DNA of 64,000 nt from Polyangium spumosum (lineage in GTDB: Bacteria; Myxococcota_A; Polyangia; Polyangiales; Polyangiaceae), in the NCBI RefSeq assembly GCF_009649845.1, contig NZ_WJIE01000005.1, forward strand, positions 558,001 through 622,000. Reading direction: 5' to 3'. The notes under the pieces are model-generated. The model had not been told where the DNA came from, ran no database searches, and saw only the letters and a program-made list of their open reading frames with translations. A program made the position numbers and the translations under genes. This document shows positions 32,130 through 54,622 of this stretch, one piece after another; positions within the stretch are counted from its first letter, which is position 1, and every line of letters begins with the position of its first letter.

Positions 32130-33083
32130 TCAGGAGAGCGCGAGCATGCGGTCGATCGGCACGCGGGCGCGCTCGCGTAACGCGGCGGGCATCTCGATGC
32201 GGGGCTCGAGGTCGCGCAGCGCGAGGTAGACCTTCTCCATCGAGTTGAGGCGCATGAACGGGCACTCGTTGCAGGCGCAGTTGCCCTCGGGCGGGCCCTC
32301 GATGAACGTCTTGTGCGGCGAAGCCTTGCGCATCTGGTGCACGATGCCGCTCTCGGTCGCGACGATGTAGGCCTTCGCGTCGTCGGACTGCGTGTACTTC
32401 AAGAGCGCGGTCGTCGAGCCGATGAACTGGGCCATCGCGAGGATCGGCTCCTCGCACTCGGGGTGGGCGATGAGCTTGGCCTCGGGGTGCTGCTCGCGCA
32501 GGCTGATGATCTTGCGCAGGCTGAAGGTCTCGTGCACGACGCAGCTCCCCTGCCAGAGGCGCATCTTGCGGCCGGTCTTCTGCTCGAGCCAGCGGCCGAG
32601 GTTCTTGTCGGGCGCGAAGAGGATCTCCTTGTCCTCGGGGATCGCGCGGACGATCTTCTCGGCGTTCGACGAGGTGCAGATGTAGTCGCTCTCGGCCTTC
32701 ACCTCGGCCGTGCAGTTGATGTACGTGATCGAGACGGCGTCCGGGTACTTCGCGCGCCAGGCGCGGAAGCGATCGACCGGGCAGCCGTCGGCGAGCGAGC
32801 AGCCGGCCTCGAGGTCGGGCACGACGACGATACGATCGGGGTTCAGGATCTTCGCGGTCTCGGCCATGAAGTGCACGCCCGCGAAGAGGATGACGTCGGC
32901 CGTGGTCTTCTTCGCCTGCTGGGCGAGCTGGAGCGAGTCGCCGAGGAAGTCGGCGAGATCCTGGATGTCGCCCTCCTGGTAGTAGTGGGCGAGCAGGACG
33001 GCGTTGCGCTCCTTCTTGAGCCGCACGATCTCGGCCTCGAGATCGAGGCGCGGGTCGATCTTGCCTCGGACGGTTTCGGTCAT
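32130..33083 (-). CDS. nadA: Quinolinate synthase NadA
   Basis: Iron-sulfur enzyme of de novo NAD synthesis, condensing iminoaspartate and dihydroxyacetone phosphate. About 317 residues. Landmarks are [38 protein letters not shown], the cluster cysteines in [21 protein letters not shown] and ECPFM (within NCACNECPF), and AHPECEEPI. The ATG at 33083 is supported by its 4-bp ATGA overlap with the upstream acyltransferase gene; an in-frame TTG lies 12 bp further upstream. nadB and nadC are not in the window. Confidence 0.95.
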
Positions 33084-34039
33084 CGTGGCCCCCAACGTAG
33101 AGGCTCCGCGGGCGCGACGCCAGGGGGGTGAACCGCCACGCGCGCGAGGTGTTCGAGGTGGTCACGCAAGCGCGCGGAGGGCGCCTCGCCGAGCGCGCCT
33201 GCGTGAAGCTCGGGGCCGAGCGTGACACGCACGTCGACGTCGCCGAAGCCCGGGAGCGTGAGCTGAAGGAGCGGCACGAAGGCGTCCGTCGCGCCCGCGC
33301 GCCCCACGAGCGCGGAGGCGAAGGCGCGCGCGCGAAGCGAGACGACGCCCGAGACGATCGCAGGGACGACGACGAGGTCGTCCCGCGCGCGCCGGGCGAG
33401 CGAGACGAGCGCGTCGAGGCCGGGTCTCCATGCGTGGAGCGCGCTCTCGCCGGGAGCGACGAGGCGCGGATCGGGCTCGATGCGGCCCGCGGGGAAATGC
33501 AGGAGCGCGCCGCCGCGGACGAGGTGACGCGCGGCCGAACGAAGCGCGCGTCCGGCGCGCGCGTCGGGCGGCGCCGCGAGCAGGTGCCTGCGGACGTGGG
33601 GCAAGGCGAAGAGCAGGTCACGCTCGGCGGTGATGACGGCGAGGTCGTCGCGGCCCACCGCGGCGAAGAGCGCGAGCGCGTCGTAGAGGCCCGGGTGGTT
33701 CGAGACGACGAGCAGAGGGCCACGCGCGGAGAGCGCGGCGCGGCGCGCGTCGAGATCGTGAGGTCCACCCGAGGCGTCGGCGAGGCGCGCGCGCACGCCG
33801 TACCGATCGAGCATCCGGAGCGAGGCGCGGCGGAGGGATCCGAGGCGCGCGAGGTCGTCGTCGAAGGCGACGAGGTTCTTCGCGAGCGAGAGGGCCGCGG
33901 GGTGGAGCGCGACCTCGGCCACGCGCGCGGCGAGAGGGCCGCGGTCCTTCGCCACGTGCCCGGCCATCTCGGCGCGCGTGATGTGGAGGATGTGTTCGAG
34001 GTCGGCGGATGCTTTCACCTCCAAGCACCTCGCGCGCAC
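33080..34039 (-). CDS. PlsC-type lysophospholipid acyltransferase family protein
   Basis: About 319 residues from a GTG. The acyltransferase motif NHPGLYDAL (NHxxxxD) and a downstream [10 protein letters not shown] match the two signature blocks of glycerophosphate acyltransferases, with an [10 protein letters not shown] strand after them. No membrane helix is clear. Its stop overlaps the nadA start by 4 bp, so the two are translationally coupled despite no obvious pathway link. The 5-prime end lies next to the 21-bp satellite array. A GTG seven codons in is an alternative start. Confidence 0.8.
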
Positions 34040-34114
34040 GTCGAGAGCCCTCGCCTGATCCGTTCGAGCGCGTTCATGTCGCGGTGGAGGATACGCGGCG
34101 CGTGGCCGCGGCGT

Positions 34115-34450
34115 GACGGCAAGGCCGCGCCGTTCGAATGCACGCCCGCCCGCCGTCGCGGCAGGCTTCGGCCCCGCGCATGCATCGTCTCAAGCCGCCG
34201 CGGCACGACCTCGACGTGCACCGGCACACGCTCCCCCCGCGAAGGCACGCCCGGACCGCCGAAATGCAGCGCCTCGACGTGCGACGGCACACGCTCCCCC
34301 CGCGAAGGCACGCCCGGACCGCAAGAATGCAGCGCCTCGACGTGCGACGGCACACGATCGTTTCGTGTCGGCAGACGTTTCCGCCGTGAAGGCACGATTT
34401 CGACCCGTGAATGCATGCGTCGCTCCGTCGAACGCTCCCGCTGACGGCGC
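34115..34450. repeat. 21-bp degenerate tandem array with embedded 63-bp higher-order repeat
   Basis: Sixteen consecutive 21-bp units, beginning 34115, 34136, 34157 and so on to 34430. The core GCA at unit positions 5-7 is kept in fifteen units and preceded by GAAG, GACG or GAAT in most of them. Three unit types (GACGGCACACG, GAAGGCACG, GAATGCAGCG) alternate, giving a 63-bp period that is almost perfect between 34209 and about 34345. Because 21 is a multiple of 3, both strands read as heptapeptide repeats in every frame. The minus frame has Cys at every seventh residue; the plus frame has Ala in the same place. Neither reading has convincing coding signals. It fills the gap between the acyltransferase and the next gene. 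Confidence 0.85.
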
Positions 34451-34494
34451 TTTTACCAACCCGAACCGCGCATTCGCGCAGGTAGGACACGAAC

Positions 34495-35280
34495 ATGAAC
34501 CTCGATCTGACGACGATCTCCCCCAGCGGCCGTGAACGTTACCTCCGCATCGGCCGCACGTACGGGTCCGGCGATACGCTGAAGCAGGCGAACAAGACCC
34601 TCAAGGCCCTCGAATCCCACGCCGCCCCGCTCGAGACCGGCGGGTTCTCGGTCGACGACGGCGTGCTGCTCGAGGCCGCGCGGAATGCATTGATCGACGC
34701 CGGCGTGGGCCGGGACGAGGCCGCCGGGAAAAAGCGGTCGACGATCCTGGCGTTTCGCGCCGCGACCACGGACGCGAAGGCCACCCGCGCCCGCGCGCGT
34801 GTGGTCCTCACCGCCGCCCACCGCGTGCTGGAGGACGGCGGGGACGAGGTCGCCGCGCGGGCGGCGCAGACGGCGCTCGACCGCACGAGTGTATTGCCCG
34901 ACGACGCGGAGCAGCTCGCGACGCAGCTCGATTCGCTCCGGACGACGCTGGGCGACGCGGCCATCGTCGCGGTCACCGGTTCGCGCGGAGGGCCGATGGT
35001 GCTGGAATCACTCGTGTCGGCCGCCGCCGCGCTCCGCGCCGCCGCGGAGGAGCGAGAGACGACGGGCACGCAGCTCTCCACCGAGCAGATGGACGTCATC
35101 GACGGGATCATCGTGACCCTGTGCCGCGCGGCGAGGAACGCCGCGCGCCTGACCGCGACCTCGCAATCGCAGCCGGCGCTCCTCAAGGCATTCGCGCTCA
35201 CCCACATCGCCCCCGCGAGCCGCGCCGAGGAAGAGGCCGAGAGCCCGGCCGAAGCCGAGCCCGAAGCCTCCCCCGCCTGA
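34495..35280 (+). CDS. Hypothetical helical protein
   Basis: 261 residues, cytoplasmic by sequence, with no signal or membrane helix and no recognised family. It is rich in Ala, Arg, Glu and Leu with long predicted helices (KQANKTLKALESHA, LEAARNALIDAGVGRDEAA, TRARARVVLTAAHRVLED, MVLESLVSAAAALRAAAEER, DGIIVTLCRAARNAARL). It ends in a Glu/Ala/Pro-rich tail (AEEEAESPAEAEPEASPA). An AGGA ribosome-binding site precedes the ATG, and the repeat array ends about 45 bp upstream. Helical bundle proteins of this size often act as adaptors, but no function can be assigned. It converges on a 40-residue ORF with a 1-bp gap. Confidence 0.7.
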   Translation: MNLDLTTISPSGRERYLRIGRTYGSGDTLKQANKTLKALESHAAPLETGGFSVDDGVLLEAARNALIDAGVGRDEAAGKKRSTILAFRAATTDAKATRARARVVLTAAHRVLEDGGDEVAARAAQTALDRTSVLPDDAEQLATQLDSLRTTLGDAAIVAVTGSRGGPMVLESLVSAAAALRAAAEERETTGTQLSTEQMDVIDGIIVTLCRAARNAARLTATSQSQPALLKAFALTHIAPASRAEEEAESPAEAEPEASPA

Positions 35281-54380: not shown

Positions 54381-54622
54381 CCGGAGGCTCACGCGAGCCT
54401 CCCGGCGGATACCTACCGACCGCCGGAGGTTGGCTTCATCTCAAAGGCGAGCACCTGCCACCTTCCGGAGGCTCACGCGAGCCTCCCGGCGGGTACCTAC
54501 CGACCGTCCGGAGGCTCGCGCGAGCCTCCCGGCGGGTACCCACCACCTTCCGGAGGCTCGCGCGAGCCTCCCGGCGGTCACCCACCACCTTCCGGAGGGC
54601 TCACGCGAGCCTTCCGGGAGTA
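54381..54622. repeat. Array of 42-bp hairpin-forming repeats
   Basis: Five near-identical palindromes of the form GGAGGCTCRCGCGAGCCTCC begin at 54383, 54467, 54510, 54552 and 54594. A degenerate sixth unit fills the place near 54424, giving a period of 42 to 43 bp. Arms are 7 bp (GGAGGCT/AGCCTCC) extended by GCGC pairs; the spacers are CCGGCGGGTACCYACCACC-like. The fifth unit has compensating changes in both arms (GGAGGGCT with AGCCTTCC). The array fills the 266-bp gap between convergent genes. Confidence 0.85.

Follow-up and report, generated by a model that had tools for sequence, protein, structure and literature searches.

Upstream of a small gene of Polyangium spumosum lies a tandem row of 21-bp units, which raises the question of whether this row is the wreck of a repeat-protein gene, a satellite in drift or a DNA element that serves the gene beside it. 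The window, by which we mean the whole 64,000-nucleotide stretch of DNA analysed here, holds the row between two divergent genes, laid out as follows.

33080 to 34039, minus strand: divergent neighbour gene, with an acyltransferase match (E 0.0001) just under the Pfam cut-off.
34109 to 34444, plus strand (orientation taken from the gene downstream): the array, sixteen tandem units of 21 bp, recognised by unit fit, periodicity and in-register conservation in four species.
34209 to 34356, plus strand: 63-bp higher-order repeat inside the array, 2.4 copies at 94% match.
34445 to 34494, plus strand: 50-bp linker between array and gene, conserved in the four-species alignment.
34495 to 35280, plus strand: gene for a 261-residue, probably helical protein of family A1, with no Pfam match above cut-off.

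We measured the identity of 34101-34460 with itself at successive lags and obtained 0.47 at lag 21, 0.49 at lag 42 and 0.57 at lag 63. For the 360 bp upstream of the gene (locus L041), lag 21 gave a z of 6.3 and lag 42 a z of 6.8, both above the maximum of 200 shuffles. The 21-bp periodicity described in the initial annotation is thus borne out by lag identity and by the shuffle test, and its count of sixteen units by the unit fit over 34109-34444. Three details need qualification. The GCA trinucleotide, said to be invariant, occupies its common phase in 15 of the 16 units, the last of which reads GCT; the 63-bp higher-order pattern holds locally, at 34209-34356; and the distance from array to gene, given as 45 bp, is 50 bp when measured.

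It had also been noted that the array reads as heptapeptides, with alanine in a plus frame and cysteine in a minus frame, and a decaying repeat-protein gene had been offered as one explanation. Both readings are indeed present in the translations, and in each of the four species the plus-strand alanine frame has no stop over 34151-34444, as a gene of this kind would have it. However, this open frame varies least at its third codon positions, opposite to the pattern of coding sequence, and both minus frames over the same interval are interrupted in relatives: the cysteine frame by one stop in one of them, and the Val/Leu/Met heptad frame, which has no stops here, by one or two in each of three. 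Sister arrays argue the same way, with periods that are not multiples of three. At 9 of 34 Polyangium loci a lag of 43 bp scores highest of those tested, and periods of 85 and 86 bp occur as well; such periods shift the reading frame while keeping the helix phase, so peptide repeats are excluded at the nine loci with lag 43. The window array is non-coding, and its origin as a decaying gene is scarcely credible.

We then asked whether the array is kept between species. Of five further Polyangium genomes, three (G001, G002 and G004) have an orthologue of the window gene at 73-74% identity, while G003 and G005 hold only paralogues at 52% identity or less and no window-type orthologue. The proteins encoded in the records of Polyangium sp. 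6x1 and P. fumosum are those of G001 and G002, and the genomes are probably identical. In all three relatives with the orthologue the distance between array and gene equals that in P. spumosum within one base, and the 14 units from 34151 onwards align without gaps in the four species. The GC core at unit phases 10-11 is identical in 14 of these 14 units in all four species. Conservation at the window array depends on the phase within the unit (p 0.00005 by within-unit and 0.0002 by base-matched permutations); the dependence is weaker when the three other species are taken alone (p 0.09). In seven further array sets, phase dependence reached p ≤0.0005 in three and 0.03 in one, with values of 0.08, 0.17 and 0.98 in the other three, and at L185/L205 concerted change at certain phases contributes to the phase pattern no less than constraint does. 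Identical columns across the four species make up 82% of the linker as against 66% of the array. The far side of the array, read by eye, differs in sequence in Polyangium sp. 6x1 and P. fumosum. Since the array is kept beside the helical-protein gene while the opposite flank differs, it belongs with that gene; the neighbour at 33080-34039, which was not seen beside the array in P. fumosum, is probably not part of the unit.

Among the units that align, no change of copy number was seen at the window locus in the four species. A comparison of array length, advised in the initial annotation for strains and made here between species, gave a divided answer, with constant copy number here and gaps of 21-22 bp at sister loci. 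Of the two observations that had been named as telling against the satellite reading, constant copy number in relatives was found at this locus, whereas the absence of matching elements elsewhere was not, comparable elements being many. A satellite in drift is rejected for the window locus, given the in-register retention of the 14 tested units in four species and the invariant GC core.

The search for comparable arrays in the genome and its relatives found many of them, usually of another unit sequence. We sampled 800 kb of the own genome, as forty 20-kb stretches, together with the window; the L132 and L142 stretches were picked because they hold A1 paralogues. A gene was called array-positive when its upstream region reached z ≥4 at lag 20-22 or 42-44 and stood more than 1 above all other lags from 10 to 49 (390-400 bp upstream and 25-60 shuffles, varying by run). 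The periods of the further arrays in the sample cluster at multiples of about 21 bp, and several of the arrays adjoin other small genes. Besides A1, we followed the mutually related families A4 and A5 and the family of L145. Small genes with an array-positive upstream region also occur outside the followed families, at L127:11715-12470 (minus strand) and L135:4126-4914 (plus strand).

In the own genome (G000, 10.76 Mb) every member of the followed families was array-positive: 11 of 11 in A4, 4 of 4 in A5, all three members of the paralogous family A1 and both of the L145 family, 20 of 20 altogether. The sample of 558 genes contained 20 positives. Six of these belong to the families, so that the background is 14 positives among 552 other genes, some of the 14 sharing their array with a neighbour. 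The contrast of 20/20 with 14/552 gives a Fisher probability of 3e-28, and 16/16 after the four founders are dropped gives 3e-23, both overstated because the paralogues are related. The association is looser in G004, a relative with a two-contig assembly, where 9 of 11 A4, none of three A5, three of three A1 and neither of two L145-family members were positive (12 of 19 in total, p 2e-13; seven members fail the test). Across the genus, 3 of 10 tested L145-family loci were positive by the rule, and Tandem Repeats Finder reported arrays of 43, 85 or 86 bp in four of the seven rule-negative ones.

For A1 homologues, 24 of 30 matches were tested (L057 was not located, and L063, L064 and L068-L070 are partial), and 18 of these 24 loci beat shuffles at lag 21, 42 or 43. 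The six that do not are L055, L060 and L061, which are A1 paralogues within the genus that lack an array, and L048, L049 and L050. Outside the genus, arrays were found in 4 of 12 tested A1 loci, in three genera, with eight lacking one (L082, whose start was not found, was left out), and in 9 of 14 A4 loci; the A4 and L145 upstream test omitted L220, L237 and L239, which lie at contig ends. We recognised no description of such arrays in the open PubMed Central literature, as judged from titles and abstract openings.

Some arrays have no gene of the followed families beside them (L121, L117, L151 and L040). The one at L040:3790-4130 (G000:C1:440289-440629) is a 21-bp array with the GAAGGCA core of the window array and lies between convergent genes, with no relative of A1, A4 or A5 in the surrounding 8 kb. 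It may be either a further target or an orphan; its matches that we examined in other Polyangium genomes lie inside open reading frames or have no comparable array. Two further arrays of 21-bp period, L101:1336-1705 and L109:1499-1894 of G002, carry the GAAGGCA core (TGCCTTC when read on the opposite strand) and fall inside long open reading frames; they are probably coding linkers and were set aside. Two very similar transposase-like genes (L117:7358-8530 and L136:4742-5893), which we take to be IS1-like, each stand beside a 21/43-bp array. Repeats of other kinds were also seen. An inverted-repeat array at 54381-54617 of the window, GGAGGCTC..GAGCCTCC, follows a gene end with a 42/85-bp period; a like element at L134:2656-2870 in the sampled genome makes it probably a dispersed repeat. 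Several arrays of 132-134-bp repeats with GTCGAGCGC extend over more than 10 kb at L122-L123.

What the arrays have in common is their spacing. Over the 29 array-positive of the 34 loci, with 15-30 bp allowed per locus, the best spacing averages 21.26 bp (SD 0.28, range 20.85-21.73), and the pooled profile has its peak at 21.0 and a second peak at 21.5. A spacing of 21.26 bp corresponds to two turns of about 10.6 bp each and thus places successive units on the same face of the helix. The top span by Tandem Repeats Finder is 227-456 bp at 24 of the 34 loci and shorter at the remainder. This shared two-turn spacing suggests a control or protein-docking site of an unrecognised kind.

The letters of the units behave differently between orthologues and between paralogues. 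Unit sequences differ between A1 paralogue groups. For the eight orthologue pairs of best identity between the own genome and G004, array similarity gave z 11.8-86. Among ten paralogue pairs with at least 55% protein identity in the two genomes, nine lie between -1.1 and 8.9; the exception, L201/L202, is a pair of G004 paralogues with an array common to both (z 24). The two groups (8 versus 10 pairs) differ with a Mann-Whitney p of 0.0003, or 0.002 when both members of a pair must be array-positive. Orthologues were paired by best identity, with no tree, and L210 is equally near L190 (74%) and L191 (73%); dropping this pair gives p 0.0004. Array sequence is thus conserved between orthologues and diverges between most paralogues. 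In the own genome, the 100 bp adjoining the genes are 87-94% identical within L182/L183, L185/L186 and L190/L191, and the arrays of these pairs give z of 0.0, 1.5 and 8.9. Gene conversion of gene and linker beside older, different arrays would be expected to give the same picture.

Gaps in the sister arrays include some of 21-22 bp as well as other sizes, and between L189 and L209 one-base insertions recur every 21 or 42 bp or so; units are 21 bp long in one species and 22 bp in the other. These alignments support concerted change of the arrays at sister loci, probably by unequal exchange or conversion. The unequal crossing over or slippage that had been read from the window array thus finds its support at the sister arrays, with their unit-sized gaps and stepwise insertions, but not at the window locus itself, where copy number is constant.

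To characterise the arrays further, we looked for strand bias, RNA structure and promoter signals. Between -430 and -120, 32 of 34 Polyangium loci, five of the 34 not being array-positive, have a negative GC skew (C over G on the gene strand), with a mean of -0.28; the mean over 82 control intergenic upstream regions is 0.00. The skew of the window array is weak (-0.08). Outside the genus, only five of nine array-positive A4 homologues have negative skew, the other four having the opposite sign. The strand bias within Polyangium is the main fact that a simple, symmetric model of double-stranded binding leaves unexplained.

Neither strand of the window array folded better than shuffles as nested RNA structure (z +1.75 and +1.15), the covariation term of its alignment was a penalty (+3.44), and the one Rfam hit was sub-threshold and outside the array. 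At the window locus, no terminator and no sigma-70 consensus were found in 33900-34600. In a scan of the last 120 bp before the ATG, 5 of 34 loci have sigma-70-like hexamers, placed between array and start codon, that score above shuffles (p ≤0.03), about one such locus being expected by chance; at the other 29, the window locus among them, hexamers were no better than shuffles. On these sequence properties we favour a DNA element over an RNA element.

The proteins themselves gave few clues. Of 183 genomes of the order, 16 have a match to the A1 profile, and these belong to a single taxonomic family; in another family, G036 has one marginal A1 match (7e-6) by single-sequence search. Among 23 genomes chosen from outside the genus, 4 match A4. 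Comparison by hhalign relates A4 to A5 (98%, E 2.8e-13) and finds no homology of A1 with A5 or A4 (probabilities 0.1 and 2.6). No named function was found for A1 in Pfam (above cut-off), PHROGs or NCBIfam (nothing better than E 0.009), nor for A4 and A5 in Pfam, and the same searches recognised no DNA-binding domain in any of the three. PADLOC matched none of four proteins, one from each family. Single queries returned no viral relative of A1 among viral contigs, no phage record for the A4 founder and no plasmid record for the window protein. The AlphaFold model of the window protein (three sequences) has a mean pLDDT of 51, too poor to use for the fold; by this low-confidence model the protein is probably mostly helical, and the A4, A5 and L145 proteins are called helical by eye from their sequences. 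A profile search of the PDB returned BurrH at 6e-13; this score is the sum of at most 18 matches of at most about 8 bits, none passing singly, and kinship with TAL/BurrH was therefore rejected.

Taken together, we propose that the window array is a non-coding row of about 16 putative protein-binding sites, two helix turns apart, that sets the expression of the adjacent gene, a reading to which we would assign a probability of roughly 0.45. It fits the suggestion in the initial annotation of a structural or protein-binding DNA element. Sites two turns apart would align the bound proteins on one face of the DNA, and proteins so placed beside the promoter of the helical-protein gene could set its expression. 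The window array would belong to a class, in which, within Polyangium and some of its relatives, several families of small, probably helical proteins would each have members equipped with an array of about 21.3-bp spacing, commonly 230-460 bp long and usually of private sequence. Each array would most likely be read by a locus-specific factor, and the simplest candidate is the encoded protein itself, by autoregulation or self-docking. We infer binding at the array, an effect on transcription and reading by a cognate protein; that the reader is the encoded protein is a guess. A bolder extension, possible and on balance doubtful, is that Polyangiaceae hold an expanded orthogonal set in which each small helical protein recognises its own array of about 16 repeats, the array being usually exchanged, once a gene has duplicated, for a new private sequence of unchanged spacing that is retained thereafter.

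The strongest rival to a row of binding sites is that the arrays are neutral minisatellites without function, which form in long upstream regions through slippage or unequal exchange and owe their period to the mutational mechanism. Unit sequences that differ between most loci agree with this, as does the homogenisation seen in unit-sized gaps and in one-base changes repeated through an array; arrays exist that have no followed-family gene (L121, L117, L151 and L040), and gene conversion of gene and linker could explain like linkers beside unlike arrays. However, neutral change does not account for an association of 20 of 20 family members against 14 of 552 other genes, for the phase-constrained core with diverging spacers at the window locus, for array sequence kept between species or for a common spacing at unrelated sequences. 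We consider this rival unlikely. It is less probable still that the array is transcribed into a repeat RNA that partners the downstream protein, in the manner of a type III toxin-antitoxin. The position directly 5' of a small protein gene and the compositional strand bias in Polyangium would suit such an RNA, and a sequence that is usually private to each paralogue and conserved between orthologues would suit a specific RNA-protein pair. Yet the window locus has no detected terminator between array and gene, no fold better than shuffles, a covariation penalty and no Rfam hit in the array; the units are 21-22 nt, five loci have sigma-70-like hexamers between array and gene, and the four proteins gave no PADLOC match.

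The strand bias also bears on another possibility, that the arrays are C-rich Rho-utilisation or insulation regions that block read-through into the genes, the period being incidental. The excess of C over G on the gene strand at 32 of 34 Polyangium loci beside unbiased controls speaks for it, as does the sense RNA of the window array, which is less structured than shuffles. It leaves the two-turn period and the in-register core unexplained, however, and sits poorly with the weak bias of the window array itself (-0.08) and with the opposite sign of skew in four of nine array-positive A4 homologues outside the genus, so that we regard it as very improbable.

If families of genes are marked by a two-turn spacing instead of by a sequence, one satellite has turned into a testable rule. 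Should the proteins bind their own arrays, Polyangium would offer a rich natural collection of protein-DNA partners that have diverged side by side, from which the origin of new DNA specificities could be studied. If the orthogonal pairs are real, each array would be an identity tag, and the whole a new self-addressed DNA-protein (or RNA-protein) module in which a helical ruler is shared and the sequence is not. If the arrays are not self-bound, the puzzle would be how a ruler of about 21.3 bp persists while its letters change.

Several known systems resemble these arrays in part. The iterons of plasmid replicons are direct repeats, about 20-22 bp long, that lie close to the gene for their binding protein, and the Polyangium arrays likewise are direct repeats of about two helical turns (21.26 bp). 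In contrast to iterons, there are many such loci per genome in Polyangium, and we found no Rep match in the window family and no plasmid record for the window protein. Bacterial minisatellites, or VNTRs, are tandem arrays with concerted changes and gaps of whole units. The sister arrays of Polyangium share both traits, but they are tied to gene families and have a common spacing, and at the window locus the copy number is constant and the core conserved.

Type III toxin-antitoxin loci, as described in the relevant passages of one account (PMC8860590), have a small protein gene preceded by a row of tandem repeats, and the Polyangium arrays too lie upstream of small open reading frames. Unlike those loci, the window locus has no detected hairpin terminator between array and reading frame (33900-34600), and its family has no ToxN-like match in Pfam, NCBIfam or PADLOC; nested RNA structure is unsupported, and at some loci sigma-70-like hexamers lie between array and gene. 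With neither the terminator nor the toxin found, the organisation set out in those passages (PMC8860590) is not that of the window locus.

A likeness in geometry is provided by BvgA of Bordetella, whose dimers, according to the passages concerned (PMC7250471), occupy sites spaced by 22 bp on one face of the DNA upstream of a promoter, all of the sites being weak in one case. The Polyangium arrays have the two-turn spacing in common with it, and may also resemble it in standing beside a promoter. The differences lie in number and specificity: six dimers at a promoter are described in those passages (PMC7250471) as against about 16 units in the window array, and one regulator serves several promoters there, whereas in Polyangium each locus usually has units of its own sequence. 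Of the features of a helically phased operator, the same-face spacing and a conserved core in each unit are both present at the window array.
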